Shown here: positions 3,377 to 32,700 of the stretch, piece after piece
Layout: every line of letters starts with the position of its first letter
How positions within the stretch are numbered: the stretch's first letter is position 1
DNA from: Aeoliella mucimassa
GTDB taxonomy: Bacteria; Planctomycetota; Planctomycetia; Pirellulales; Lacipirellulaceae
DNA: 64,000 nt
Reading direction: 5' to 3'
Assembly (NCBI RefSeq): GCF_007748035.1
Contig: NZ_CP036278.1
Location: 3,472,001 to 3,536,000, forward strand
Notes under the pieces: generated by a model
What the model saw: the letters and a program-made list of their open reading frames with translations, nothing else
Databases searched by the model: none
Told to the model about the DNA's origin: nothing
Program-made: the position numbers and the translations under genes

Positions 3377-3770
3377 GTGCAGCGGTCGACGAGGTCGCTT
3401 TCTACATACGTGTTGCAGGTGCCGACGAAGTACTGCACCACCATGATTGTGCGACCGCCCCTCCTCCCAATACCACATATCGTCCGTCGCAATCTGAGTC
3501 GTCGATCATGCTCGCGGTGCGCAATGCGTCCCCGATTCAGGAGTGCTGTTAGGTGCTACCGAGATATCTTGTTTCGCTTCTTGTCTTTGAAAATTGTACT
3601 TAGGGGATTGCTCCGTGATTCAAACTCTTTTGCGATGGCTTATGTTCCGCGCGACACGAAAGCCGCTAAGAGAAAGCGGCTCTTATGAAGTCGCGCCGGC
3701 AACGAACTCCAGTACCGTGATCTGGAAAGATTCTACCACCACTCGTGCCTTATCGGAGGTTTACCACACT
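3377..3770. other. Intergenic region with one hairpin
   Basis: No convincing gene. A 7-bp inverted repeat, AGCCGCT (3661-3667) and AGCGGCT (3675-3681), has a 7-base loop and is followed by CTTATG rather than a T-run, so termination is doubtful. A strong ribosome site, CGGAGG (3754-3759), belongs to the next gene. Confidence 0.4.
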
Positions 3771-4703
3771 ATGGAACGACACATGCGAAAACAAACACTG
3801 TTTGCCGCTGCACTCGTCGCGGCTTTGGCTGTTGCTTCTCATCAGACTGCCAACGCGGTCATTATTGCCTCGGACGACTTTACTGCCACTGATTCGGGAG
3901 TTGGCTGGGCCACAGGGGACGAGTGGGAATATCTGCAGGCAGAGGAATCACGAGTGTTAGTAGAATACAACCAGGCGAGCTGGCGCGAACTCGCGAGTCC
4001 GGTGGATATTTCAAATCAAGTGACCTACATGCGGATGACCTACCAACGGGTTGTCGGCAACACGAGCTTCTGGGGCGGCGTGTCCCTGTTCGACGGCACA
4101 CAGGAAAGCCCCGGCCGGGAGCTCTTTAAGCTCGGCCGGCCGGCTGGGATGAGCAACTACGGGGCCGATACCCTTGGCGATAAGCTGGACAGTATAGTCC
4201 GCACAAACACCAGCCTGCACGAGCTAATCGTCGAGATCGACACGACCAACCAATCATCCTTCGGCGAGGTCAACTATAAACTGTGGATCGACAACCATAA
4301 CTACGACGCTCCGGCTGATGAGGTTCTGGTTACCGGCATCTCGCCAGAGCATTTCTACAACATGGTGGGGGTGCTTCGCATGCAGGCTCAGACCAATGCG
4401 TTCGATCGGGTCTATGGGCCGCTGACTATTGCAACCGATCCGATTGAAGTTGGCTTGGTTCCTGCTGGCGCCCCGCAGCTCACTATCAACCGCACAACGG
4501 GCGAAGTCTCGCTGAGCAACGTCTCGTCAGTTGATGGCGTGGTGGGTTACACACTTTCTTCCGCCGGCGGATCGTTCAACACGGCGAATTGGACCACTAT
4601 CACCGGTAACTACGACAATTCCCCCGGTGGCGATGGCTCGGTGGACACGGACGACTTGTGGAACGTGGTCAGCGACCTCAGCAATACGGAGCTAAGCGAG
4701 TAA
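3771..4703 (+). CDS. Double PEP-CTERM protein, 5' part, ended by an in-frame TAA (probable nonsense mutation)
   Basis: 310 residues from ATG 3771, which has CGGAGG eleven bases upstream. The signal peptide is MERHMRKQTLFAAALVAALA and ends at TANA, before VIIASDDFTA. The mature part is a beta-rich sandwich domain of the kind seen in PEP-CTERM surface proteins. The frame stops at TAA 4701-4703, but the same frame is open from 4704 to 6029 and continues the homology to the 13989-18065 protein. There the matching place reads FGEYTLVSGGE, against LSE-stop-AISGDGG here, so TAC or TAT to TAA is the simplest explanation. As it stands, the product would lack the dockerin and sorting signal and would be released or degraded. 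Confidence 0.8.
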   Translation: MERHMRKQTLFAAALVAALAVASHQTANAVIIASDDFTATDSGVGWATGDEWEYLQAEESRVLVEYNQASWRELASPVDISNQVTYMRMTYQRVVGNTSFWGGVSLFDGTQESPGRELFKLGRPAGMSNYGADTLGDKLDSIVRTNTSLHELIVEIDTTNQSSFGEVNYKLWIDNHNYDAPADEVLVTGISPEHFYNMVGVLRMQAQTNAFDRVYGPLTIATDPIEVGLVPAGAPQLTINRTTGEVSLSNVSSVDGVVGYTLSSAGGSFNTANWTTITGNYDNSPGGDGSVDTDDLWNVVSDLSNTELSE

Positions 4704-4775
4704 GCGATTTCTGGCGACGGAGGCACCATCGGCACAACCCCGGTTGACCTGGGCACGCCTTGGATCAGGACCCCG

Positions 4776-6029
4776 GTGGAAGATGTGCAAGCCACCCTGA
4801 TGATCGACGTGAATGGCGAATCTATGCCGGTCAGCGTTTCGGTGGAGTACACCGGAGACGTCAAGCTGGGGGACCTCAACGACGATGGCATGATCAACGC
4901 AGCCGACTGGACTCTGTTCAAGTCGGGCCAGGGAGTCGTTAATCCCGGGATGTCCGCAGTCATGGCATACCAGATGGGCGACCTCGATGGCGACGGCTAC
5001 AACCTGCTGCAGGACTACTCACTATTCACGTCTGTGTACGACGCAGAAAATGGGCTGGGAGCCTTCGCCGCATTAACGTCTGCTGTTCCCGAACCGACCA
5101 GCTTGGCACTGCTCGCCTCGGTAGGTGTGCTGCTGCTCGTCCGGAAGTCTCGCTTGTGGCAAGCGACTCTCTGCCTGAGTCTGATCGCACTGTTGCCGGC
5201 GTCGCCTGCGTGTGCCGTTATTCTCAATCCCGGCTTCGAATCACCTGGTACAACCGGCTTCCCCCAAGCAGATGACTGGGCCGTCAAAGCCCAAACCGCC
5301 TTGCACGCGTCTTTCTCAAGGCTTAACAATGAAACGCTCGGTGCGAGCTTTGCGTTTACCGACGCGTCGACTTATCAGACGCTTAGCGAGACTTATTCGC
5401 TTTTCACTGAATATACATTCCAAGGATACGGTGCCAACGACAGAGGCAGGGATCTGAACTTTGCACTCGGATACTTCGACGATTCGAATGGCTACCACAC
5501 GTTAAATGCGGCCAGCTACGACCTGGACGTGTTCGCGCCTAGCGCGTGGGCGTTGTTAGATGGCGTTAGTTACTCCACGGACATTTCGGGGAGTGAGATT
5601 GGAATCGCGCAATACAATACGTGGAAGAGCAACTTTGGGGAGTCGACTACCAGTGCTTGGGAAAGCATTGCAAGTCAAAACCTGGCTGGATTTCCCGTCG
5701 GGGACGGATCGGGCAACGGCTGGGAAGAAGGAGCGGTCCCAGGCTCGATACATGTTGCCGAGTACTACCTCGAAGGCGAATCAACCATCGCCGTTGACGC
5801 GTCTCCAATCTCACTGGGGGATCTCTACGGTGGCGGTGTCGCTGGTCCTGAGGACCTTCTCTTTGAGTACGTCATCTCCGACGGCTCCGTCGTACAGGGC
5901 TGGGTGAACTATGCCACGGAGCCAAACAGCCTAGTCGGAACCAACAATGCGGTTCCCGAACCTTCAACGCTGCTCGTTGCATCGATCATGGGCATCATTG
6001 TTGTTGGAGTGCGTCGCACTCTGGTCTAG
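4776..6029 (+). CDS. Double PEP-CTERM protein, 3' part: dockerin, internal sorting signal, second module, final PEP-CTERM
   Basis: The open frame actually begins at 4704, just after the TAA, in the same frame as the upstream part; ATG 4776 is only the first Met and has no ribosome site. Order: end of module 1 (TPVEDVQATLMIDVNG); type I dockerin-like repeat GDLNDDGMINAADWTLFKSG with a second GDLDGDG; then VPEPTSLALLASVGVLLLV, the basic cluster RKSR, and a signal-peptide-like helix ending PACA before VILNPGFES. Module 2 follows, with a worn dockerin half (YNTWKSNFG) and a GDGSGNGWEEG segment matching module 3 of the 13989 protein. The end is VPEPSTLLVASIMGIIVVGVRR. It is either a pseudogene half or expressed only by readthrough. 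Confidence 0.8.
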   Translation: MEDVQATLMIDVNGESMPVSVSVEYTGDVKLGDLNDDGMINAADWTLFKSGQGVVNPGMSAVMAYQMGDLDGDGYNLLQDYSLFTSVYDAENGLGAFAALTSAVPEPTSLALLASVGVLLLVRKSRLWQATLCLSLIALLPASPACAVILNPGFESPGTTGFPQADDWAVKAQTALHASFSRLNNETLGASFAFTDASTYQTLSETYSLFTEYTFQGYGANDRGRDLNFALGYFDDSNGYHTLNAASYDLDVFAPSAWALLDGVSYSTDISGSEIGIAQYNTWKSNFGESTTSAWESIASQNLAGFPVGDGSGNGWEEGAVPGSIHVAEYYLEGESTIAVDASPISLGDLYGGGVAGPEDLLFEYVISDGSVVQGWVNYATEPNSLVGTNNAVPEPSTLLVASIMGIIVVGVRRTLV

Positions 6030-7178: not shown

Positions 7179-8528
7179 CTATTGAAAAGTGTCTTTGGAA
7201 CGGGGCAAAGGAGCCTGGTTAGCGCGGAGCCAATCTTCGAGTTCGCTTTTTAGCGACCGCGCGATTTCGGGATAAGACGTGGCCATGTTGATGGATTCAC
7301 CCGGGTCGTTTTCCAAATCGTACAATTGAGCCTCGTGGGTCTCGTAGCTGTAGATGAGTTTATATCGACTTTGGGTAATGGCACTGTACGGAGTCTGCCA
7401 AACCTGTTTGCTTTGGGGCTGGCCGTTGTAGCAGGGCATGTGGCAGTAGATGGCGTCGCGCACTAAGTCTGTTTCGTGATTCAGCAGCGGCACGAGCGAC
7501 CGTCCGTCAAGTTGGTGATCAGGCTTTCCGGAACCAGTCATATCCAGCAAGGTCGGGTACCAGTCGATGATGTCGATCAACGCATCGGTGCGTTCCGCCC
7601 GAGAATGGCCCGGCCAAAACACCATCGTGGGGACTCGGACACCCCCTTCGTAGCAAGTTCCCTTGTGGCCACGTAGTGGAGTGGAATCGCCGCTCAGTCC
7701 ATTCACTCCGTTGTCGGAAGTGAAAATAATGACCGTGTTCTCGGCAAGCCCCAGTTCTTCAACAGCATGGAGGACTCCTCCAAACGCATCGTCCAATGCC
7801 GCGATCATCGCCGCGTAGGTTGGATTGTACCGAGCCGGCTCCTTGCTCCTTTCCTTGAATCGTTGAATATCCGCTTCGCGGGCCTGCAGTGGCCGGTGAA
7901 CCGAATACGGTGCGTAGCATAAGAAGAATGGCTGTTCTTTGTTTCGTTCAATGAACGCAATCGACTCTTTCATCAGGCGTTCCGGCAGGTACTCGCCCGG
8001 TGGGCCGTCTACAAGCTTTGGGTTCTTGTAAGGACTGAAGTAGCTTGGGGGATGCCCCTTTCCCCATCCTCCGGCGTTTAAGGTGAAACCATTATGGGTC
8101 GGGTCATGCGTAACGTGCCACTTACCAACGTATCCGGTCGCGTAGCCCGCTTCCGCAAGCGAATCTGCCAGCATGGTGATGGGCTGTTGATAATAGAGCT
8201 TTGATTTCACGGGGATAATCCGCCGATCCTGCTCACTGCCTTTGCCACCAAATGCCTCGACGTGGTAGATGCCTGTGTGTGGCGAGTTAAGCCCGGTAAA
8301 CAGACTCGCCCGCGAGGGCGAGCAGGTCGGCATCGCGTACGATCGATTGAAGACCGTTGCCCGCTGCGCGAAAGCGTCGATATTCGGTGTTAGATAGTAG
8401 CTCGCACCGTTGTACCCGACATCCGCCCATCCTAGGTCGTCTACCAGAATCAAGAGGACACTGGGGCGTTCGGCTGCATGGGTTGCGGAAGCCGCCAATA
8501 GCAATAGCGCGGCAAGAAATCTCACCAT
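7179..8528 (-). CDS. Secreted sulfatase (formylglycine-dependent, arylsulfatase type)
   Basis: 449 residues from the ATG at 8528, which gives the clean signal peptide MVRFLAALLLLAASATHA and has a GGGGA ribosome site; the frame is open upstream to 8597, but those residues look non-native. The family starts with VLLILVDDLGWADVGYNG (metal-binding DD). The catalytic core TCSPSRASLFTG has Cys at about residue 69, the C-x-P-S-R signal for conversion to formylglycine. Further marks are GKWHV, FTSDNG and RGHKGTCYEGGVRVP. It hydrolyses sulfate esters, probably on polysaccharide, outside the cytoplasm. It is the last gene of the minus-strand run behind another sulfatase and a GH36 alpha-galactosidase. 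Confidence 0.92.
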   Translation of the reverse strand: MVRFLAALLLLAASATHAAERPSVLLILVDDLGWADVGYNGASYYLTPNIDAFAQRATVFNRSYAMPTCSPSRASLFTGLNSPHTGIYHVEAFGGKGSEQDRRIIPVKSKLYYQQPITMLADSLAEAGYATGYVGKWHVTHDPTHNGFTLNAGGWGKGHPPSYFSPYKNPKLVDGPPGEYLPERLMKESIAFIERNKEQPFFLCYAPYSVHRPLQAREADIQRFKERSKEPARYNPTYAAMIAALDDAFGGVLHAVEELGLAENTVIIFTSDNGVNGLSGDSTPLRGHKGTCYEGGVRVPTMVFWPGHSRAERTDALIDIIDWYPTLLDMTGSGKPDHQLDGRSLVPLLNHETDLVRDAIYCHMPCYNGQPQSKQVWQTPYSAITQSRYKLIYSYETHEAQLYDLENDPGESINMATSYPEIARSLKSELEDWLRANQAPLPRSKDTFQ

Positions 8529-8711
8529 CGGTATCCCCAAAACATGCCTTTGCATGCGAAGGTGTCTCACAAGCTTGGATGAGGGGGATGCAAACATGTT
8601 GATGTGAACGTTGTAGGTGAAGGAGTTGGCCAGGATAACCCGTCGCTGTTAGCCGTGCTGGGTAAATAGGCGGCCCGCCGCTCGGCCCCGCCATCCGATG
8701 CATCACGGCGA

Positions 8712-10096
8712 TTAACGTTGCCCGCTGTTTTCGAGCATCTTGAGAGGCCAGAGTTCGCTTTGTGTGCGACTATCATTCATTCGATTTTCGAGAGACTGGC
8801 GGAGTTCAGGATGTTGCCGGCTGGAGTCGGTTGACTCTTCACCATCCTTACTTAACTCATAGAGTGCAAGTGGGCTTGAGCTCCCTTGGCGAATGGCCTT
8901 GACGTCGTTGGCGACATCCAGCAAGCCTTGCCGTGCAGCCCCCGAACCGTTGCGGAACATGTTGATGAATTCCCAGTAGAGAAAATCGTGAGATTCCTGC
9001 CGTTCTGGCGTGCCATGGAGTGTTGGCACAAGGGAAATACCATCGATGCCGCTGGGGGGTCGACTCCCGCGAGTTCGCAGTACGTGGGCATTATGTCTTG
9101 AAAGCCAGAGACGTGGTCGCTTCGTCCAGGGGAAACAACGCCCGGTTGCCAGGCAATCATCGGCACGCGCACGCCCCCCTCAAAGACATCGCGTTTAATG
9201 CCACGGAGCGGCCCATTGCTATCGAAGAACTTTGTCATGGTGTTTGGCCCTTTTTCATAATTGGATTGGGGGCCGTTGTCGCCGGAGAAGATCACCAAGG
9301 TATTGCTGGCGCGTCCTGTTGTTCGCAGCACATCAAGCAGCTTCCCGATGTCGCTATCCATCCGCGTGATCATCGCAGCGTACTCTCTTGCATGGTTTGG
9401 CCACGAGGTTTTATCGGCGTAGGGACCAAGGTCTGGCGGATTGTATGGGGCGTGAGGGATGGTATACGCCAAGTATAGAAAATAGGGTTGATTATGATCT
9501 CGGGCAACATACTCCAAAGCCAAGTTGGCGAATACATCGTGACTGTACTGTCCTGGAGCAAGCTGCATTTTCCCTTCATCTTCGCAGAGGGTCTTGGGAT
9601 AGTAGTTGTGGGCCGCTACGTGAGTGTCGTACCCCACGAAGCGGTCGAAGCCCTGTCGCGTGGGATATCCTGACTTGCGTTGTGGCCCTAAGCCCCACTT
9701 GCCAAAGCAGGCGGTTTGATACCCCGCCTCGCGGATTTTCTCGGCGATGGTTATGTCTTCGTCGCGGAGGTTCTCGCGGCGCCAGTTGCCGCCGGGATTC
9801 CCTTTGATGTAGCCAATCGACTGGCTTTGGCCCGTCATCAGGCAGGCTCGCGAGGGACCGCAGACGGGGCCGCCCGCGTAGTGCCGGGTGAACGTCAACC
9901 CTTCTGCGGCCATCCGGTCGAGGTGGGGAGTCTGTATTTTCTGCTGCCCGTAACACCCCAAATCGCCATAGCCCAAATCGTCAGCAAGTATGTAGATGAG
10001 ATTCACATGCTCGTCACCCGAACAGACGCCGGCCAAGAGCACTGTGAGAAGCAACACACCGCATTTAACAATGCGGGACAATCCAAGAAGATTCAT
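8712..10096 (-). pseudogene. Secreted sulfatase with a single-base frameshift near the C terminus
   Basis: Starts MNLLGLSRIVKCGVLLLTVLLAG (signal peptide), then NLIYILADDLGYGDLGCYG with the metal-binding DD. The catalytic motif VCGPSRACLMTG has Cys at about residue 79. GKWGLGPQ, FSGDNGPQ and RGIKRDVFEGGVRVP are also present. After AGVDPP the frame runs into unrelated sequence ending at 8852, while the proper sulfatase C terminus (GIDGISLVPTLHGTPER onward, through YELSKDGEE to 8712) is in the next frame. The break is at a run of six G (plus strand 9054-9059); a seventh would restore one 461-residue protein. It starts 4 bases after the GH36 stop, so it is surely co-transcribed. It could be a real mutation, slippage or a sequencing error. 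Confidence 0.88.
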
Positions 10097-12435: not shown

Positions 12436-12864
12436 TCAGAGTTCATAGTCCAGCTCAGAAGTGTTGTCGGTGATCTTCGCCGTCAATTCGGACTCGGTGT
12501 TGTATCGGCGGGGAATGATCTGTTTGGTCTCTTCCATCATCTGGTCGGGTGCATCGGGGTTCGGGATTTGCCGGCCGGTTGCCTTCTCGGAGTAGATTTC
12601 CACCCGATACTCGCCGATTTGTAAACCCTCCGAAGCGGCTATCTCAAATCGCCCCTCCACGATGTCTGCCACCACTCCTTTTCCTGCTTGTAGTGGGTGA
12701 AGGAAGATCGTGCCGACTGGTAATGGATCGCTGCCCAAGGTGACGCTACCAGTGACGGCTAGGCCAGATGACTCAGACTTGCAGCCAACAACCAACAGCA
12801 TCGCGAGGGGCAGAAGCAGCAAGCGGCGAAAGGTAGCTCCATCAAGATGATTGCGTTTGTTCAT
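12436..12864 (-). CDS. Small lipoprotein paired with DUF1559
   Basis: 142 residues with a lipoprotein signal ending LLVVGC (lipobox VVGC, Cys about residue 28). The mature part begins [21 protein letters not shown], the same first beta-strand pattern as the other three lipoproteins in this window, and has the [11 protein letters not shown] strand of carboxypeptidase-regulatory-like folds. Its ATG overlaps the DUF1559 stop in an ATGA arrangement, so the two are translationally coupled. Predicted to be membrane-anchored on the periplasmic side; function unknown. Confidence 0.8.
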
Positions 12865-13853
12865 AGTGTGTCAGTGACCTCCCCCCTCGACTTGGTCGAG
12901 TAGGCCCGCCAAACGGTCAAGTCGATGTCGTCCGAGATAAACCGAGACGAGCCATCGATGAACGACACCATGACACCACCGGGGTGTAGGCTCCGAGCCG
13001 ACATGTAACCCGTGTTCGCCGCATTGCCGGGGTTACTGGTGCAGGGAATTCCGTCCTCCGCCATCCGCAGCACCTCACTGGCGCTACTCGGGCAGGCGGC
13101 AAAGTCTGGAGTCGTAGAGTTTGGCTCGTAACGAGTCGTTATCTGGTACGAACTGACATCGTCGTTCCAGATCCGGCCGCGACGATCAAAAGTCGGGGTG
13201 CCGGAATCGGTGGTCGGAGCTTGTCGCATTTCCATCATGCACAGCGTATTGGACGTGCCGTCGGTAATGTGGGCGATATTAGCGCCATACTCCAGCCAGA
13301 ACGGTGCGTAAGGCTTGGTCTTGTCAATTACTTGAGTGCGGTCGGTCGGATCGGGCGCTAGCTGTTGGCCGTAGGTCCATTCGCCCCAGTTAATGCCGTA
13401 GTTGCCTTTGGCATCCTGCTTGGTGGGGTAGAGGATTTGCTGATCACTCTGGCAATGCATCACCGCTAACGGACCATGAGTGGCGATATCTTGGCTGTAA
13501 CTGTCCTTGTCGGGGTCCCACAAGTCGGCTCTTTCATTCTGCTCGATAAACGAAAAAATAAACGCAATGAATGGAGTGCGGGGCTGAACTTGGGGGTACG
13601 CGTGGTTCACGTCTTTCGGCGGTCGCCCTAAAGCACCTTCGGGGAGTCGCCCGTACTGTGACTCAAAATTCAAAACAGCGAGCGACAACTGCTTAACGTT
13701 GTTTTGGCAGGCACTTCGCCGCGCGGCTTCTCGAGCCGCCTGAACGGCTGGTAATAGCAGAGCGACCAAGATGCCAATGATTGCAATGACAACTAGAAGC
13801 TCCACTAGCGTGAAAGCGTTCCTCGATCTGAAGTATCGCACGTTTTCCTCCAT
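12861..13853 (-). CDS. DUF1559 protein with prepilin-type N terminus
   Basis: 330 residues from ATG 13853 ([13 protein letters not shown]); the frame is open upstream to 13949, but those residues are unlike a prepilin leader. The leader is RNA followed by [14 protein letters not shown], so the residue before the cleavage site is Ala instead of the usual Gly. The hydrophobic helix ends [19 protein letters not shown]. The DUF1559 domain follows, with the C-terminal [17 protein letters not shown] tail. It sits between the PEP-CTERM polyprotein gene (136 bases upstream) and the lipoprotein it overlaps by 4 bases. Confidence 0.9.
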
Positions 13854-13988: not shown

Positions 13989-16900
13989 CTACTTGCCTGA
14001 AGCCCTACGTCGTTCAACCGCACACAAACCACAAAAGAGGCTAATAAGGACGATTGCCGAAGGTTCTGGTACGGCTTGTTGCGCCGCGCTAGCGGAGCTC
14101 GCACTGGCTCCAAAGTTGCTCTTCCACGTGGCGTAATCACTGACACCGATGGGGCCCGTGTTAGCCGGGTCGCGTGTGTCGGTGGCAAACGCAGTCGATG
14201 CGTTGCCACCTAGGTTGTCACGCCACACGGTATAGTCAGCTAAGTTAACCACTCCATCGCCGTTGTAGTCGCCCACAATGTTGGTAGGTGGTGTCACCGT
14301 ACCCACCGAGATATTGCCATATTCGATGATGCCATCGGCAAGCCGGTAGGAAAACGTTAAGTCGCCCACAGGAGAGAATCCCGCCTCGTAGTCGAAAATG
14401 CTCCCCAGGTTGGCAAAGGAGGATCCCATACCGATTAGCGAATCCCCCTGAAGGTAAGCTTCGGCAATTCCGTTGCCACTCGATTGGCCCGCTTCCTCCC
14501 AGCCGTTGCCATCGGTTGACTGGCCATTGCCTTCGATGTCCTGGTCTTGCAGGCTGTTCCACGTTCCCTCTAGTAGCAGCGAGTTGCTGCTGCTGATTTG
14601 GTAATAGTTGATGCTTAGATCGTTTTCTGTTGCCCCATCGATGCGGACATGCCCGTTGGTCATGTCGACGACAAGGTTCAGTTTCAGGGGATCTTGGACT
14701 ACCCCCGCGAAAAACTCGACATTGTCAAACCCAAACAATTGGGCGTTGCCGCCGATGCCGGCGTCGCGGCTGCCCAAACGAACCTCAAGGTCAGTGACCA
14801 CCGACCCGGTAGTGTAGATTACTGAGAAATTATCCAACGGGTCAGCAGAGTCTAGTGGCTTAGAGTCCACTACTGAGAAATCGACCGACGCCACCTCGTT
14901 GCCTCCTGCAAACAGTCCGATGAGCGCCGCGTCTCGCAGGTTGGAGACCCACGTGTCGTCCGTCTGTCCCCTGCCACCTAACCCTGCAGAGAGCGTGTAG
15001 GTGGTGTTCGGCATCAGCGACGCCGCTGGAATGGTCTGTGTGTAGTAGGCGTCGTCGTTGTAACGGATTAGTGCCACCGCGTTTAGGTCGTCGCCGTCGG
15101 ATTGCGATGAGGGATACTCGTTGGATAGGTGGTTGAGAGTAGCTCCTTGCCCGACGTTATTCACTGCGCCCCAGCCGGGTAGCGTTATGACCTCTCCGAC
15201 TGGCAAGCCGGTGGCGGTAGCTCCGTTGGTCCAAGTGATCGGCGCCGAATCCGAGCCCGGGGCGACACCACCGCTCTGGTCTTTGTCTTGCGGACGTGTA
15301 CGCCATTCGCTTGGAATCGTGCCGCTGTAGGTAATCACGAACTCACCGTTGGTGATCAGATTCTGAGCCTGCGCGGACGGGGCAGCGATTGCTCCGGCTA
15401 CGAGGGCTAGCAGCAAAGCAACGCCAGCCCGCAAACGGGCACTACGCCGCCCAATCAAGGCCACACACGAGGCGGCAGCCATCAGCAGCAAGCTGCTCGG
15501 TTCGGGCACGCTACTAACCATTTGTGCAAAGCTACCGGCTCCGTTCTCCAGTTCAAAGGAGGTCCTGAATTCTGCGAAATCGAACACGTTCACTACCCCG
15601 TCGGCGTTGAGATCCCCTTGGAAATAGGCGTCGAAAGTCTCCAGCGAAGAGACATCGGCCAACAGATTGTCACGCAAGATAGCCCAATCGAGTGCATCCA
15701 CGGTGCCGTTCACATCGAAGTCACCCAAGGCAAATGCGTTCCCGCCATTTCCGGTGTACTCGACCACCACGGAAATGTCGTTGCCATCGATATCTTGAAT
15801 CGTGAGCACCACATCCTCGACGGGACTCTTTTGCCAGGCGTTACCAAAGTTGATCTCGCCGCCCGACACAAGCGTGTATTCGCCGAATGTACCTTCGGCA
15901 AGGTCCGACACGCTCTCTGGGGCGGTAAACTTGACCCATGTGTCGTCGGTGTCGAGTCCCTGCGATTCGATAGTCGACCAACCGGCTTGATCAAAGCGGC
16001 CAATGGTCGTCGCAAGGAAGTCGTAAGAGACCATCGAGTAGTCCTCAGCCGTGTCGTTGCGGAGAGTCATGTTTCCGCTATCGCGATCGATAGTCAGTAT
16101 GGGTAGTACTGTCGTTCCGGCGGTCGCGGTGCCCCCCAGGTAGAAGGCCAAGTCCTGACCGGTATTTGCCCCCGACGTCAACACTTCTCCTGTTGCTGCA
16201 TCTTGAGTAACCGCCCATAAATGCCCTGGAACAACTCCTGAGGAGTTTGTGATCTCTAAGCGAACACTCTCGTTGTCCTTCGTTCCCGTAGTGGGATCGA
16301 AGTCGACGAGAAAGGCGTAGGGAACGTTTTGTTGCAGAAAGACAGTCGAATCGAGCGTCAACCGCAAGCGGTCGCCGTCAACTAGGTCCGTCTGAGGAGT
16401 AAGGGTTGGCAGGGTGCCCGTTTGCTGATAGATGATCGTGCCGGGGAGTTGCCCATCGGTCGGGGAAGTTGAAAAATCTGCTGGGTCGGTTGTTGGCCAT
16501 TGGACGATCGTCAAACGCACCCCAAGGTCGCTTGCTGGATACCGGTTGCCGTTGTCATCCCAACGAACCGTGATTTCATCCAGGCTCCACCCGGTATTGG
16601 CGTCACCTGTATCGGGGGCAAAAAACGACGAGCCACGACCTTGTGCCACGTTCGAAGCATCCCCTTCAAAAAATGTGGTATAGGATGACAAGGGAGTAAC
16701 GTTAGTGAAGAAAACGTTGCAGGGATCGTTCTGCCCGTCGTGGGTAATGGTGACCTGTGCCGACGCGGTGGAGCCGGTCATCGCAAGCAGGGCAAGAAAC
16801 AACGCAGCGATTGACCATTTGGCCGAGTTCTTCCGCCACAGGGCCAGGCCGCCCAATGCGATACCAAGAATGCATGCGCTGGCAGGCTCGGGAACGCTAA

Positions 16901-18065
16901 TCGGTAGCGAGAGCTCGGAACCCGTTGCCGCGAGATAAGCCTGCCGAAGGATGAACCAGTCGTCCCGATCGGTGACGCCATCGAGATCGAAGTCGCCAGT
17001 ACCTATCGAAAGGTAGTCGCCAGCTGCTCCGCCATTGCCAGTGACTCTGTCTTCATTCGAGCTAAGCCAGCCATCGAGGAAGGCGTTTACGTCGTCGTCG
17101 TTCACGGTGCCGTCGAAGTTGGCATCGCCGACGATCCATGCTTCTCCAGCACTGTAGCCAGGCGAGCTGGCTGAAGGCAAAAACACCTCGGTGAAGTAGT
17201 CGTTGTCGGTTGCATAGTTAAATTCCGAACTAATGATACCGTTGTCGCCAAGCACGAACATCTCCAATTCATCCACCAAGCCAGCGTAGTAACCTCCCGT
17301 GCCTTCGGCATTCGATCCGACCGTCAGGTAACCACTTGCACTCGACGCATAGCCTCCCGATTGGGTGACGGCTGCAAGGCCATTGATGTACATAATGCTG
17401 CCCGTCTCATAACTTGGGCGCACCTGCATCAGATGAGTCCACTCTGTGGTCGATGCCAAGATTCCGGAGGTTACATAGGAGCCATTGTAGACTGCTACCC
17501 ACTCGCCATCCCCATTGACATTGACCGCATGCCGTCCGCCATCGCTTACCACTTGCTGGTAATTGCCGATGCCGCTGGCGTCGGGCTTGGCCCAGAACTG
17601 GTATCCACGGTCGACAAGGCCATCGTAGTTACCAAGAATCGGGCTAGACGCGTTAACATTTGCTGCCGACGTAGATGGCAGATTGAGCGGATCCCCGGCC
17701 AAGTAAGTATCGACACCGTTAAAGGAGATGGCGAACACGTTTGATGCGTCGGCCGGCAGCGGGCGATCGCTGCTGATGTCGACATAGGTGGGAGTTCCTG
17801 TGGCGGCTAGGTCCTGCAGATCGCCATCGGAAAACACGGTGCCAATGCTGTCGAATGTCAGGGCGACGGTTCCGCCGTTGGAAGCCGCCGTTTCACTGGC
17901 ATCGTCCCCCATACGGTACAGACGGTCGACTTGCGTGTCCGCCAGAACCGAGGTCTCCAACAACACAACAATGCCAATCACACAACAGAAACGGATTGTC
18001 ACCGCTACTGGAGCTGTCAATTGATTAGTCAGCCACCAAGGACACCAGCTTTTCCAAAAAGTCAT
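13989..18065 (-). CDS. Triple PEP-CTERM polyprotein (three surface modules joined by sorting-signal/signal-peptide junctions)
   Basis: 1358 residues from ATG 18065; start uncertain, the frame is open to 18137. Module 1 (to about residue 436): signal helix ending SVLA, LamG-like sandwich (EWTHLMQVRPSYETG), two dockerin-like repeats. Junction 1 (16895-16758): VPEPASACILGIALGGLALW, RKNSAK, new hydrophobic helix ending TASA before QVTITHDG. Module 2: beta-rich domain and two dockerin repeats (GDFDVNGTVDALDW, GDLNADGVVNVFDF). Junction 2 (15509-15366): VPEPSSLLLMAAASCVALIG, RRSARLR, second helix ending AQA before QNLITNGEF. Module 3: NGEF-type domain, GDYNGDGVVNLADYTVWRDN and a second dockerin half, final VPEPSAIVLISLFCGL then ERRR. 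Each junction could be cut by both exosortase and signal peptidase I. Leads the minus-strand run. Confidence 0.85.
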   Translation of the reverse strand: MTFWKSWCPWWLTNQLTAPVAVTIRFCCVIGIVVLLETSVLADTQVDRLYRMGDDASETAASNGGTVALTFDSIGTVFSDGDLQDLAATGTPTYVDISSDRPLPADASNVFAISFNGVDTYLAGDPLNLPSTSAANVNASSPILGNYDGLVDRGYQFWAKPDASGIGNYQQVVSDGGRHAVNVNGDGEWVAVYNGSYVTSGILASTTEWTHLMQVRPSYETGSIMYINGLAAVTQSGGYASSASGYLTVGSNAEGTGGYYAGLVDELEMFVLGDNGIISSEFNYATDNDYFTEVFLPSASSPGYSAGEAWIVGDANFDGTVNDDDVNAFLDGWLSSNEDRVTGNGGAAGDYLSIGTGDFDLDGVTDRDDWFILRQAYLAATGSELSLPISVPEPASACILGIALGGLALWRKNSAKWSIAALFLALLAMTGSTASAQVTITHDGQNDPCNVFFTNVTPLSSYTTFFEGDASNVAQGRGSSFFAPDTGDANTGWSLDEITVRWDDNGNRYPASDLGVRLTIVQWPTTDPADFSTSPTDGQLPGTIIYQQTGTLPTLTPQTDLVDGDRLRLTLDSTVFLQQNVPYAFLVDFDPTTGTKDNESVRLEITNSSGVVPGHLWAVTQDAATGEVLTSGANTGQDLAFYLGGTATAGTTVLPILTIDRDSGNMTLRNDTAEDYSMVSYDFLATTIGRFDQAGWSTIESQGLDTDDTWVKFTAPESVSDLAEGTFGEYTLVSGGEINFGNAWQKSPVEDVVLTIQDIDGNDISVVVEYTGNGGNAFALGDFDVNGTVDALDWAILRDNLLADVSSLETFDAYFQGDLNADGVVNVFDFAEFRTSFELENGAGSFAQMVSSVPEPSSLLLMAAASCVALIGRRSARLRAGVALLLALVAGAIAAPSAQAQNLITNGEFVITYSGTIPSEWRTRPQDKDQSGGVAPGSDSAPITWTNGATATGLPVGEVITLPGWGAVNNVGQGATLNHLSNEYPSSQSDGDDLNAVALIRYNDDAYYTQTIPAASLMPNTTYTLSAGLGGRGQTDDTWVSNLRDAALIGLFAGGNEVASVDFSVVDSKPLDSADPLDNFSVIYTTGSVVTDLEVRLGSRDAGIGGNAQLFGFDNVEFFAGVVQDPLKLNLVVDMTNGHVRIDGATENDLSINYYQISSSNSLLLEGTWNSLQDQDIEGNGQSTDGNGWEEAGQSSGNGIAEAYLQGDSLIGMGSSFANLGSIFDYEAGFSPVGDLTFSYRLADGIIEYGNISVGTVTPPTNIVGDYNGDGVVNLADYTVWRDNLGGNASTAFATDTRDPANTGPIGVSDYATWKSNFGASASSASAAQQAVPEPSAIVLISLFCGLCAVERRRASGK

Positions 18066-18420
18066 GGGAAGTTGTTCCATATGAAGACAATGAAGAGACA
18101 AGAGAACAGGAATAGACCTCGCCTGTGGCCCTACCAACGACCACTCACCGAGAAGGGCGAAAAAGAGACAGAAGTTTCCAAGCTAACCGTCTTGCGGTAC
18201 CTCTATAACCACCTCTTAATCCCTCTCCGTTTCAAGAACACTTGGATTTTCCTGTTTTTGGGTGCTCTCATTTCAGAATGCGATTGAGCCGACAACTTTT
18301 TCCACGTATTGGCGGCTTTCATGAAACGCCAGGCACTGCAAGAGTGGTTTAATAGGTAATGGCGAAGTCTGTAGCTTGGGTACGCCTCGCAGGGCGACTT
18401 TTCACAAATCAGAGTGCGAT
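18066..18420. other. Divergent promoter region between polyprotein and sigma genes
   Basis: No gene. It must hold promoters in both directions, but I recognise no clear -35/-10 pair. An imperfect hairpin, GGCGGC then TTTCATGAAA then CGCC, lies at about 18313-18333. The equivalent region in the second locus is 47945-48499. Confidence 0.4.
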
Positions 18421-18981
18421 ATGGCACAAGAATCACTTCAAAACGAAGAGTGCGACCGCTTGGGAGAGTTGGCAAGACTTTGGATGCGAAGCCAGCCGAT
18501 GATTGCTTCGTTCATTCGAGGTATGGTGACCGACGTGCATGACGTCGACGATCTAGTACAACTGGTGGCCGAAACCTGCGCCCGCAAGTTCGACAAATTC
18601 GACCCTCAAGGGTGCGATCAGTCGTTCTTAAGGTGGTCGCTTTCCATTGCTCGGTTTGAGGTTCTGCGATACTACAAACGGCAAAAGCGCACAGCGGCCT
18701 GCTTCAGTCCCGAAACGATGGACGCCATTGCTGCGGAATTCGAACGGACCGAAAGCCCCCAGGAGGATCGACTCGATGCCCTCCGGAAGTGTTTAGGAAA
18801 CGTGACGGATCGCAACCGTCAACTTGTAGAGATGAGGTATTTCCGCGACTTGCATACCGATCGTATCGCTGACCGGTTGGGGCTAACCTCCAGTGGCGTT
18901 CGCGTAGCGCTTCACCGCACCCGGCAATTCTTGGCCGACTGCGTCCAGCGTAAATTAGAGGGGGCAGAGTATGCCGAGTGA
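18421..18981 (+). CDS. Short sigma-70 family RNA polymerase sigma factor (ECF-like, Rhodopirellula/Verrucomicrobium type)
   Basis: 186 residues from ATG 18421; the frame is open to 18376, but MAQESLQNEE is the better start. Region 2 covers about residues 20-85 (DVDDLVQLVAETCARKFDKF, with WSLSIARFEVLRYYKRQKR). Region 4 covers about residues 115-175 and contains the helix-turn-helix (LHTDRIADRLGLTSSGVRVA). Such factors redirect RNA polymerase to a small regulon. The FecR gene overlaps its end by 11 bases, so the pair is co-translated. The likely targets are the divergent surface-protein genes, as an inference from position. Confidence 0.9.
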   Translation: MAQESLQNEECDRLGELARLWMRSQPMIASFIRGMVTDVHDVDDLVQLVAETCARKFDKFDPQGCDQSFLRWSLSIARFEVLRYYKRQKRTAACFSPETMDAIAAEFERTESPQEDRLDALRKCLGNVTDRNRQLVEMRYFRDLHTDRIADRLGLTSSGVRVALHRTRQFLADCVQRKLEGAEYAE

Positions 18982-20710
18982 TTCGAAACAAGACAAAGTT
19001 GTCGCCGATTTTGTAGACGGCGTTCGTAATGAAGACCACTACCGCTGCGTCGAGCAATGGTTAAAGAACGATAGTGACCACCTGCGAGCCTTTGTCGCTC
19101 AGTTGCGCATCGAGCAGGATTTGCATCAGCTATGCTTAGACGATGATGTCTCGCGGTTCTTATGCACTCCCCTTGTCGATGACCGGAGAAGTTTCAAGAA
19201 ATCGCCTATCACGTGGCTAGCGACGATTGCGGCTTCGATTCTGTTGGCGGTTGCCAGCTATTTTGTACTGCGTGGTGACAATAATCCTGGCACGCCTAAT
19301 CCCCCCCTACAAGCATCAGCTAACCGCCTCCTTCCCGCGACCGAGCCGGGCGGACCGAGGATAAATGCCGCCATCTTGGCAGACGCCAATTCCAGTGTCG
19401 GTACGGTATGGAACGTGGAAAACTGCGTTTGGACTAAGGGGCAAACACCGCTAGAACGCGGGGCCGACCTGGCTGCCGGATCGCGTCTATCGGTGGAGCA
19501 GGGCAATTTGAGCATCGTGTTTGGTAGTGGTGCCCGTGTGACGCTGGCTGGCCCCTGTGATTTAATCCTCAAGGATAGTCGAAGTTGCTTGCTTCGCTTG
19601 GGGAACCTGGCTGCCTCGATTCCTCCGTCGGCCATCGGGTTTTCGGTAACCACTCCCAGTTCGGTAACGATTGACTTGGGGACGGAGTTCGGCGTTTCGG
19701 TCGACGAGCGGGGCTCTTCGGAAGTCCATGTGTTTGATGGGGAGGTCGCCACCCATTCGATAGACCGGAATGGAGTTCCTACGGGGGAAGTCGTCCGCTT
19801 GACTAGCTCAGAAGCAAAACACTTTGAAATCGGGGGCACGACCTTACGGGAATTCGAAGCCAACGAGGCGCGATTTGTACACGCCCCTCATCCTTCGATC
19901 CCGCCCAATGATTTACCCACACTACCGATTGCGGATAATCTTGCCCTGTGGTTGGCTGCCGATAAACAAGTAAGCCTGGACGAGACTGGCCATGTGGCTG
20001 CATGGGAAGATCTGCTGATTGGCGACAATCAAGTGCACGACGACGCTCTGCAACCAACTCTTGATTTCCGTCCCTCCTGGAGTCCGCACGCTCTCAATGG
20101 AAAACCTGGGGTTTGTTTCGAGGGCAATGGGACGTTCCTCTTAACGACTCCGATGGAGACCACCAACGAACAAACCCTATTCTTTGTGGTGTCGGTGGAT
20201 AGGTCCAAGAGACAAATTATGCAGTTAATCAACTACAATGGACCACCCGAACGGCATGTTGTCTATCGCAAAGAGCTTCCCGAATCCGGCGTGCTCCATC
20301 TGCAAGCCTACTTAAACCACCGCCAACCGCCAACTAGCGTCTCCTTCGTGGGCTTTGTCTTTACAGGCCACGACAAGGAAGACCCGATGACGGTCTTCAG
20401 TACCGCCAGGTGTGACAGCATTACACCATTGGGGTGCGACCAGCCGGTTGTGGTGGCTTATCGGTACAGTTTGAAGAACCAACAGGCAACCTTAACCCTG
20501 AATGGTCAGCTTGAACAATCGGTAGTTGCCGATGCACCTATAGCTATTCTCTCGCGCAAAGTCCTTGGCAGGCATCCCAGCGAAGTTCACTATCAAACGT
20601 TTTCTGGAGTGCTTGCAGAAGTACTCATTTACAACAGTGCGCTCTCCGACATGCAGATGCAAAGCATAAGCAAGTTTCTGGCCAACCAGTATAGTATTGA
20701 CGTCGATTAG
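18971..20710 (+). CDS. FecR-domain membrane protein with C-terminal LamG-like domain
   Basis: 579 residues, starting inside the sigma gene. The N-terminal 70 residues are cytoplasmic and resemble an anti-sigma region. One transmembrane helix is at about residues 78-97 (WLATIAASILLAVASYFVL). A FecR domain (about residues 150-290) contains VDLGTEFGVSV-like IDLGTEFGVSVDERG and VHVFDGEVATH. A concanavalin/LamG-like sandwich (about residues 320-575) contains NLALWLAADKQVSLDE, NGKPGVCFEGNGT and VLAEVLIYNSALSD. By analogy with FecR it would sense an outside signal and control the sigma factor across the membrane; a sugar-binding C terminus would suit glycan sensing. That role is inferred. Confidence 0.85.
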   Translation: MPSDSKQDKVVADFVDGVRNEDHYRCVEQWLKNDSDHLRAFVAQLRIEQDLHQLCLDDDVSRFLCTPLVDDRRSFKKSPITWLATIAASILLAVASYFVLRGDNNPGTPNPPLQASANRLLPATEPGGPRINAAILADANSSVGTVWNVENCVWTKGQTPLERGADLAAGSRLSVEQGNLSIVFGSGARVTLAGPCDLILKDSRSCLLRLGNLAASIPPSAIGFSVTTPSSVTIDLGTEFGVSVDERGSSEVHVFDGEVATHSIDRNGVPTGEVVRLTSSEAKHFEIGGTTLREFEANEARFVHAPHPSIPPNDLPTLPIADNLALWLAADKQVSLDETGHVAAWEDLLIGDNQVHDDALQPTLDFRPSWSPHALNGKPGVCFEGNGTFLLTTPMETTNEQTLFFVVSVDRSKRQIMQLINYNGPPERHVVYRKELPESGVLHLQAYLNHRQPPTSVSFVGFVFTGHDKEDPMTVFSTARCDSITPLGCDQPVVVAYRYSLKNQQATLTLNGQLEQSVVADAPIAILSRKVLGRHPSEVHYQTFSGVLAEVLIYNSALSDMQMQSISKFLANQYSIDVD

Positions 20711-29735: not shown

Positions 29736-32700
29736 ATGGATTGGCGAAGCAATTGGCAGCGGGAGCGGCGTACCGCGAAGCGGGCATCGCGACAACGCAA
29801 ATCGCTCACCGCACTGCGACGACAACTCGGCTTTGAACAGCTAGAAAGCCGCCAGTTGCTGGCCGCCGACTTCGGCGACGCCCCGGCGCCCTACCCCACG
29901 CTGCTGGCGGACGATGGGGCTCGGCACATTACCGACAACTCATCTACCACGCTTTATTTGGGGGCGGGAGTCGATTCGGAGGTCGATGGATCACCAAGTA
30001 TCACTGCGAATGGAGATGACCTCTTTAGTACGCCCGGCGTGGATGACGAGAACGGTGTGTTCGATCCTGATAGAGACTTGGTGTTTACTGTTGGTACAAC
30101 TCCAACTGTGCACGTATATGCTACCAACAAGACGGGGCAAGATGCCATGCTCTATGGTTGGATCGACATTAACCAGGATGGTGGCTTCGATAACGCTACG
30201 GAACGAGCTTCACTTATCGTGCCGAGTTCAGACTCTGCATCGCTCTTAGCGCTTCAGTTTCCTCCACTATCAGCCACGGCCCCGTTTGGAGAGTCATATG
30301 TTAGATTGCGAATCAGCACAGACTTCACTGCTAGTAACCCGCATGGTGAAGCTTCCGACGGCGAGGTTGAAGATTACCGCGTATCAGTTTTGAGAATCAG
30401 TGAATTGGAGACAGGATTTGCAGGCTACGAGAAGCTTGTGTTCGGTCAGTCGGGAGTACCCCTGCCCGAAAATGCACAGTACTTCGGGGCTTCAATCGCC
30501 GCATTGGGGGATGTTGATGGGGATGCAGTTCCCGATATGGCAGTCGGCCATACCAATTACGTCAACGGTGGCACAGCCTACGGTGCAGTTCAAGTGTTGC
30601 TGCTCAACCCGTCTGGAACTGTGCGAGAAAGCACAACAGTTACAATTGGGACACCCAACGGTCCTACTCTCTCGGCAAGCGATAACTTCGGTTCTGCGAT
30701 TGTATCGCTTGGAGACTTAGACGGTGACGGCATCAGCGAACTTGCAGTCGGGGCAAGTGGCGACGATGTCGGAAGCACTGATGCGGGAGCCGTACATATT
30801 CTCTTCATGGATCAGAGTGGCGTGCTGAAGCGATCTCAGAAGATCGCAAGTGAAGTTGGAGGGGGGCCAAGTCTACATAGTGGAGAACGATTTGGGTCAT
30901 CGCTAGCAGCTATTGGTGATCTAGATGGAAATGGCGTGATTGATCTGGCAGTTGGTGCCGCACAACATGGTGAGGGAGACGCTAAGACAGGAGGCTTCTA
31001 CATCTTGTTCATGGCTGCTGACGGCACGGTCACATCCTACACCGAGATTTATAGCGAATCTGATGGAGGTCCTGATCTAACGAACGGCGGTCGCTTTGGA
31101 TCCTCGATTGCGTCTTTGGGTGATATCGACGGAGATGGATTCAGGGAGATCGCCGTGAGTGCAGATCTGGAAGACACCATCGCTCCCTGGCAAGGAAATG
31201 TCTATCTCATTTCACTAAACACTGATGGCACTGTTCGTCAAAGTAGGGCTCTTGTGAGGGATGGCAGTGAAGGGTTTCCGTCACAACCAAACGGCCCGTC
31301 TGGAAGACTGGGACGACTAGGCAGTTCACTGGCTGCTCCTGGTGATCTGGATGGTGATGGAGTGCAAGACTTATTAATAGGTGACTCGTACTACCTAGGT
31401 GCTGTGTATGTCGCGTATCTGCAAACAACAGGTGAGATACGTGAGTTAATAAGAGTTAGCAGTGGCTTTCCTGGTGGGCCAGTTTTTGATTCGGGTGGCT
31501 CTCTTTCGCACCAGTTTGGTAGCGCTGTCTCCTTGCTGGGCGACTTGGATAAGGACGGCGCGCCCGAATTTGCCGTAGGCGCAACTGCTGATGATACCGC
31601 TGGCCTCGCGGACGGAGCTGTATACGTGATTTCGTTGCGGCCGGATGAGCACCCGCCAACGTTGACTTCCATTCGTAGGCTCGAAGGTAGTCGCAACCCA
31701 ACGGCAGCAGACTCGCTATGGTTTCGAGTTGAGTTTTCGGAAGATGTGACAGGTGTTGATGTTAGTGACTTTACAGCAAGTGGTGGCTTATTAGCAGTTG
31801 CTACTAATGTGATCCAGGTCAGCCCCAGGCTATTTGATGTCGAACTCGGAAGGGGCAACTTAGCGGGCTATAATGGTGAAGCAGGTTTGGAATTAGCGAT
31901 GAATGCGCTAATCACTGATCGAAGCGGAAATGCTCTTCCGATTATAGAACCTTCGATTGACGAGACGTTCTTGGTTGTCAATTACACGTCGGCAGACTTT
32001 GGAGATGCTCCAGCCCCCTTTCCAACCGTTTTCAACGAAGGAGCGTGGCATTTCGAATCCTCCATGGATGAACCGAGACTCGGGATGCTGCGCGATAGCG
32101 AACAAGACGGTGTTCAGTCGCTACTCGCCGACGGCGATGGAGAGGACGAGGACGGTGTAACCTTCGGCACTATTCGCGTTGGGCAACTAGCCGCGGCAAT
32201 AACAGTCAATGTCCAGAGCGCTGCCGGCAAACTCGACGCTTGGATCGACTTCAATGGCAACGGATCGTGGGCGGATCCGGGGGAGCGAATCTTCACCAGC
32301 AAAGAAGTCGCGTTGGGTGACAACACTCTCTATTTTGACGTGCCGGTTTCGGCTGTGTCTGGGATCACCTTCGCCCGTTTTCGCCTGAGCACCGCTGGTG
32401 GACTAGGCTTTGCGGGGCCCGCCACCGATGGGGAAGTGGAAGACTACGCCATCGAAATTCAGCCACCTAACGTCGGCAGTGAGTTTGCGCCCTATCAAGA
32501 CTTCTCAAATGATGAAAGCTTTCTTCCCTCCAGCACTCCCATCGACTTAGACAATGATGGTGATCTAGATTTCCTCACTACTAAGCAACTAGCAAGCAAC
32601 CAATATGTGGTAGTGTGGTACGAGTTGACTAGTGACCGGTCCTATGTCGAACATGCAGTGACTCAATCGTCTTCTGAGATCTCGTTGCTCTTGCCGACAG

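Follow-up and report, generated by a model that had tools for sequence, protein, structure and literature searches.

A planctomycete reading frame with internal PEP-CTERM sorting signals, each followed by a signal-peptide-like helix: a probable hairpin polyprotein of surface proteins

Why should a single open reading frame (ORF) of a planctomycete carry three PEP-CTERM sorting signals, two of them followed almost at once by what resembles the signal peptide of another protein? The ORF lies in a 64,000-nucleotide stretch of the Aeoliella mucimassa genome (Lacipirellulaceae; contig NZ_CP036278.1, positions 3,472,001 to 3,536,000 of the forward strand), here called the window; the genome is a single contig of 6.6 Mb. 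According to PMC1569441, PEP-CTERM signals lie "virtually without exception" close to the C-terminal end, whereas the few that are atypical "may represent non-functional examples"; annotation accordingly treats PEP-CTERM as the end of a protein. Here, we propose that the ORF probably encodes a secretory membrane-hairpin polyprotein, from which signal peptidase I and exosortase, acting on the outer side of the membrane, would release three anchored proteins, and that some planctomycetes apparently make two to five surface proteins as one chain, with anchoring and export signals back to back.

On the minus strand, 1358 codons are open without interruption from an ATG at 18065 (other in-frame start candidates are ATG at 18080 and TTG at 18137) to the stop codon at 13991-13989. 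Pfam PEP-CTERM matched three stretches of the product (whole-protein E value, 4.6e-9), two of them internal, with 949 and 487 residues beyond them, and the third terminal. Judged by the C-terminal location expected of PEP-CTERM substrates, the whole ORF would not count as one, whereas each unit taken alone would. Its parts are as follows.

13989..18065, minus strand: putative triple-unit polyprotein ORF, unit order L-A-A, 1358 amino acids (ORF reading, L-unit census)
17940..18065, minus strand: predicted N-terminal signal peptide, ending V-L-A with D next (read by eye)
16884..17939, minus strand: unit 1 (L), predicted concanavalin-A/LamG-like fold and dockerin-like repeats, VPEP at the end (family Pfam matches, model, PDB match)
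16758..16895, minus strand: junction 1, VPEP with its helix, a basic loop, then the signal helix and TASA, followed by Q
15498..16757, minus strand: unit 2 (A type), N-terminal domain of the variable kind, then the conserved beta-sandwich module and a dockerin-like repeat, with VPEP at the end
15366..15509, minus strand: junction 2, VPEP with its helix, a basic loop, then the signal helix and SAQA, followed by Q
14061..15365, minus strand: unit 3 (A type), HpiC1-like N-terminal domain (E value, 7.5e-10), conserved module, VPEP
13992..14072, minus strand: terminal PEP-CTERM signal, ending ERRRASGK

The initial annotation had described one uninterrupted ORF with three PEP-CTERM signals and a signal-peptide-like helix with an A-x-A site after each internal one, and ORF reading and Pfam bear this out; the junctions came out at the same positions on re-reading, 16895-16758 with TASA and 15509-15366 with AQA. 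An A-x-A site had also been assigned to the N-terminal signal, which actually ends in V-L-A; our script gave no cleavage site there, as the upstream TTG start had been used. By loop length, both junctions are compact (loop of at most 15 residues). In junction 1, the segment that separates the PEP helix from the signal helix has no ATG, GTG, or TTG, start-like codons being confined to the helices themselves (TTG in the PEP helix, TTG and ATG in the signal helix). The loop of junction 2 holds a single in-frame TTG (15434) with no Shine-Dalgarno-like sequence, GGAG, GAGG, and AGGA being absent upstream.

The arrangement is not peculiar to this ORF. Whole-protein searches found long ORFs matching two or three units in many relatives, and the A. 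mucimassa genome itself contains numerous long ORFs with two or more PEP signals; scans of genome contigs with the window protein gave no locus at first and 12 loci in a second scan. The first 40 loci were picked for multi-unit matches, and, to reduce this selection bias, a profile of the L unit alone was run over 43 family genomes with its setting ignored, giving 50 further loci, mainly new L matches. The profile matched in 24 of the 43 genomes. Our census comprises the 78 of 80 matches that span at least 250 model positions, shorter partial matches being excluded; two weak matches (G016:C175, in a frame of 845 residues, and G004:C99, in one of 409) lie outside it. Of the 78 L-unit ORFs, 64 are fused in frame to one or more sister units, in 21 genomes by our own count from the tables. 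The order is A-A-L in 51, A-L in 8, L-A-A in 2 (the window and locus L071), and A-L-A in 1; one ORF has four units, one has five, and the L unit stands alone in 14. Two of the ORFs scored as A-L (L087 and L088) really hold three units each, one PEP being degenerate, and three fused ORFs (L104, L105, and L107) start right at the edge of their contigs. Stop and start codons between the units of homologues, the observation named beforehand as speaking against a polyprotein, were thus mostly absent (64/78 fused, 14/78 not), and three units per chain, the number first described, proved typical but not fixed, since two, four, and five occur as well.

A profile of the junction itself (E value of ≤1e-9, at most 149 candidates scored per genome) gave at least 109 junction matches in 23 of the 43 family genomes, all of those displayed being stop-free. 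Together with the L census, which adds G025 and G032, junction-bearing genomes number 25 of 43 by hand union. In A. mucimassa, with 150 of 604 candidates scored and the weakest three or so not inspected, 36 of 135 matches cross the junction stop-free, in about 26 ORFs by hand count. One ORF of this genome (L059:8255-12793, plus strand) is a five-unit polyprotein by its layout; it includes two neighboring in-frame junctions and unit starts that are near-identical, suggesting that whole units were duplicated. The window holds an apparent second polyprotein, a double A-A ORF at 3594-6029 on the plus strand, with one in-frame stop (4701-4703) inside its first unit; it looks either decayed or read through.

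What recurs at these junctions is their anatomy. Among 146 distinct junctions, selected by PEP motif, helix, and second helix in reach, the inter-helix loop is 13 residues long at the median and its net charge averages +4.0. Its net charge is +2 or more in 145 of the 146, versus 4.5% of random same-length segments of the same ORFs, and the 15 residues past the signal carry a mean charge of -2.4. This fits the positive-inside pattern expected of a membrane hairpin, the topology first suggested for each helix pair. An A-x-A site follows the second helix in 108/146 junctions versus 39% of shuffled windows, an approximately twofold enrichment, internal signal peptides being called from hydrophobic core and A-x-A. 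PEP and helix are retained at 144 of 148 unit boundaries; two of the four flagged are unlike real unit boundaries. V precedes PEP in 90% of internal (n = 69), 97% of terminal (n = 40), and 77% of single (n = 64) signals, the PEP itself being a search requirement. As far as sequence can tell, the internal PEP signals show no decay and are preserved to the same degree as the terminal ones. Chance hydrophobic stretches were rejected as an explanation on the strength of loop charge and PEP conservation.

The reading frame, too, appears to be maintained across the junctions. Stops in the loops number 0 in frame (partly by selection) versus 114 and 50 in the other two frames, and ordinary stops terminate these ORFs and appear in the other frames, giving no cause to invoke stop-codon reassignment. 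Third codon positions were the most divergent in 12 of 13 orthologous junction comparisons, and the pooled differences were 314, 204, and 427 at first, second, and third positions over 662 codons (P = 2.7e-14), in a pool whose pairs are not all independent and from which one further pair was excluded.

These observations support translation as a single chain and the hairpin topology. According to the model that we consider likely, a single translation product would weave through the inner membrane. The PEP-CTERM helix of each junction would cross from outside to inside, the short basic loop would be kept in the cytoplasm, and the next signal-peptide helix would lead back from inside to outside. 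Cleavage by signal peptidase I on the outer side would then free the N terminus of the following unit, and the preceding unit would be cut at its PEP signal by exosortase. An exosortase gene is present in the A. mucimassa genome and in 42 of the 43 family genomes in all, and A. mucimassa also has Peptidase_S26. The products would be separate surface proteins in equal amounts, one LamG-like L unit and two A units, which probably act jointly on polysaccharide; the locus also contains an extracytoplasmic function (ECF) sigma factor paired with FecR, a DUF1559 pseudopilin gene, and, apparently, the two sulfatase genes. From the arrangement described, we infer both cuts, the anchoring of each unit, the equal stoichiometry and its purpose, carbohydrate binding, and function.

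Several observations weigh against this model. The L unit is a separate gene in 14 of 78 cases, and in one of these loci (L122), with separate A, A, and L genes, an A gene ends in VPES. PEP is lost at two unit boundaries, where VPEH (L087) and VPEG (L088) stand instead, and no signal helix is in reach at 3 of 149 internal PEP sites. A looser cleavage motif, [AVSTGLI]-x-A, is uninformative (142/146 junctions versus 88% of shuffled windows), and the script found no cleavage site at 10 of 41 polyprotein N termini, probably because the start of the longest ORF was used. The codon test is weak on the loops alone (P = 0.018, 177 codons), and at junction 1 of the pair L082/L086 first positions are slightly more divergent than third. 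Finally, start codons with a Shine-Dalgarno-like sequence occur in 28 of the 59 long junctions (loop of >15 residues), with ATG as the codon in 17 of the 59.

This last point leads to the explanation that survives best beside ours, one that we nevertheless regard as rather unlikely, namely, that the open frame is real but downstream units arise mainly from internal initiation or coupled reinitiation, the loss of the stop being incidental or yielding a minor product. About half of the long junctions could serve as internal translation starts; many of them look like adjacent genes minus a stop codon, and an internal start may still be possible there. An in-frame ATG occurs in 28 of 69 junctions, 9 of these 28 having a Shine-Dalgarno-like sequence, a rate about that at first ATGs (70/242) and above that at ORF-internal ATGs (314/3784), and the existence of separate-gene versions points the same way. 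Against this stands the compact majority of 87 of the 146 junctions, of which only 2 have a start codon with such a sequence and 21 lack any start-like codon, as does junction 1 of the window between its helices; moreover, stops are still absent from widely diverged loops. Compact junctions cannot easily be read as stop loss between neighboring genes. That an ORF holds several complete units without usable starts between them is thus true for compact junctions and doubtful for about half of the long ones.

Unlikely as well is an uncut chain, that is, one multispan membrane protein with three ectodomains, in which PEP and A-x-A are remnants. It would be compatible with the topology alone and with the degenerate PEP at two boundaries, but it would need neither the conserved PEP nor the enriched A-x-A, and other loci encode these units individually, each ending in a PEP tail of its own. 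In L118, L131, and L136, A, A, and L are separate genes in unchanged order, each with its own start codon, hydrophobic N-terminal segment, and PEP tail, and the separate genes of L122 are arranged likewise. Five loci (L067, L072, L074, L135, and L138) combine a fused A-A pair with a separate L gene in one same-strand run, an extra PEP gene lying between them in L067, L074, and L135. Because the same units are found as separate genes, they look like independent proteins, as had been supposed from the window alone, and because 14 of 78 L units stand apart, fusion is not required for their existence.

Signal peptidase might also cut alone, the upstream unit retaining the helix pair as a hairpin anchor without an exosortase cut. 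An internal signal suffices for signal peptidase I, and exosortase would have to act on a PEP signal that lies within a chain. We consider this quite improbable in view of internal PEP signals that resemble terminal ones and are kept at nearly all boundaries, which suggests that they are read by the same enzyme. A sequencing or assembly artefact, conceivable for a finding in a single genome, or a neutral gene fusion without consequence is barely credible: the artefact was rejected because the junctions turn up in many genomes, including several assembled into one contig, and the frame is kept across deep divergence.

In terms of the polyprotein model, the history of fusion is of interest. The 64 fused ORFs contain 123 fused junctions, and 24 separate same-strand A genes lie at most 400 bases from an L-bearing ORF, many of them adjoining already fused ORFs. 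Frame sharing among these split neighbors (7/24) showed no excess over one third. In L110, L072, and L138, neighboring units lie in one frame, with a single stop codon between the stop-free frames. In a tree of L units from a quick search, in which 22 of 75 inner branches are weak, the window and L071 are sisters (Shimodaira-Hasegawa-like approximate likelihood ratio test [SH-aLRT], 95), and both group with seven separate L genes (SH-aLRT, 99). Over this tree, the fused or separate state requires 8 changes, 4 of them being forced by well-supported branches; by this phylogeny, fusion has been gained or lost repeatedly. Obvious candidates for what keeps the units fused in most loci are a fixed stoichiometry and coupled export.

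As to the units themselves, Laminin_G_3 was found in 16 of 28 members of the L-unit family, the window member being without a match. An AlphaFold2 model of unit 1 (mean predicted local distance difference test score [pLDDT], 82.7) had domain 4 of the arabinanase AbnA as its best PDB match (E value, 1.3e-8; template modeling score [TM-score], 0.31 by query and 0.55 by target), and we assign the unit, on this model, to a jelly-roll, LamG/ConA-like lectin fold. Units 2 and 3 differ in their N-terminal domains and have a common C-terminal module. This module and unit 1 were the parts modeled, the full-length unit 2 and 3 alignments having two rows each. Considered as a possible carbohydrate-binding module, the A-type module was modeled with confidence by AlphaFold2 as a beta-sandwich and then a dockerin-like repeat (mean pLDDT, 88.5), and no PDB match was found at an E value of ≤0.001; the module is possibly an undescribed domain family. 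Represented by window positions 15498-16211 (minus strand) and by the A1 alignment, it has no Pfam match in its stretch of the window protein.

In a sample of 392 genomes from the phylum, a match to the L unit was found in the A. mucimassa genome alone (E value of ≤1e-20, 5 candidates scored per genome). The phylum scan for junctions (16 candidates scored per genome) gave at least three stop-free profile-spanning matches in two other genomes, of which two were confirmed (L163 and L164), the third (G224:C226) not being inspected. L163 joins a sulfatase with a PEP signal (Pfam E value, 2.2e-24) to an A-type unit (A1 profile E value, 7.2e-37), and L164 joins an F5/8 type C domain unit to a Laminin_G_3 unit, with a PEP signal on each. 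A follow-up of related groups (9 and 2 genomes) yielded L192, with two units and two PEP signals. L163, L164, and L192 all come from other, distant planctomycete families.

The neighbors of the window ORF hint at its context.

12861..13850, minus strand: DUF1559 pseudopilin-like protein with N-methylation motif, the next gene downstream
18379..18981, plus strand: ECF-type sigma factor, divergent
18971..20710, plus strand: FecR-like protein with lectin-like C-terminal stretch (both Pfam scores just below cutoffs)
7179..10096, minus strand: two sulfatase genes (8852-10096 and 7179-8597), further downstream

A DUF1559 gene lies downstream on the same strand within 1.5 kb in 37 of 64 fused ORFs (60 with enough room) and anywhere in the locus in 56 of 64, whereas the window-type ECF sigma factor was matched in 17/64 and FecR in 11/64 fused loci, in a blastp survey with window proteins that misses divergent copies and includes some short loci. 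The two sulfatases appear to be part of the same locus, and a role in the handling of sulfated polysaccharide is plausible. Neighbors of 142 and 692 residues had no Pfam match at an E value of ≤0.01. Elsewhere in the window, a 2939-residue ORF (29736-38555, plus strand) includes LESRQLL close to the N terminus.

Sorting by exosortase and polyprotein processing by signal peptidase are each known on their own; their combination is what appears new. With PEP-CTERM/exosortase (EpsH) sorting (TIGR02595, PF07589, and PF09721), the junctions have in common the motif with its helix and basic tail, one signal-peptide-like segment for every unit, and the presence of exosortase genes, but in the present case internal copies are standard for one class of proteins and are no less well conserved than terminal ones. 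In secretory polyproteins of viruses, for example in the structural region of flaviviruses, transmembrane hairpins also lie between ectodomains, and signal-peptidase sites are present. The likeness is one of layout, relationship to viral proteins not having been searched for; in contrast to the flavivirus region, these are genes of bacterial chromosomes, and the upstream helix belongs to the sorting signal of a second protease. In rhizobia, the single gene fbcH encodes cytochromes b and c1, and the precursor is cut at an internal signal peptide. It is likewise a bacterial single-chain precursor cut by signal peptidase, but it comprises two respiratory subunits with one junction and no sorting signal, whereas here many variable surface polyproteins occur per genome. 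Among the papers listed by our search, which extended to the open-access literature (subscription papers and preprints lay outside it), we found no account of internal PEP-CTERM/signal-peptide junctions or of PEP-CTERM polyproteins.

If internal signals work, planctomycete surface "single proteins" of about 1400 residues would be several proteins, and exosortase would be shown to cut within a chain. The units occur both fused and apart, in some cases within a single genome, which offers a natural experiment on the purpose of fusion. We tentatively speculate, with somewhat more doubt than conviction, that in Lacipirellulaceae such virus-style hairpin polyproteins might be a general route to three-part, fixed-ratio, glycan-binding surface complexes built from variable and constant modules, with dozens of cassettes per genome, some under their own ECF/FecR switches, and with exosortase acting on internal as well as terminal signals. 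Should the model hold, it would represent a simple bacterial way to obtain several anchored surface proteins in a fixed ratio.

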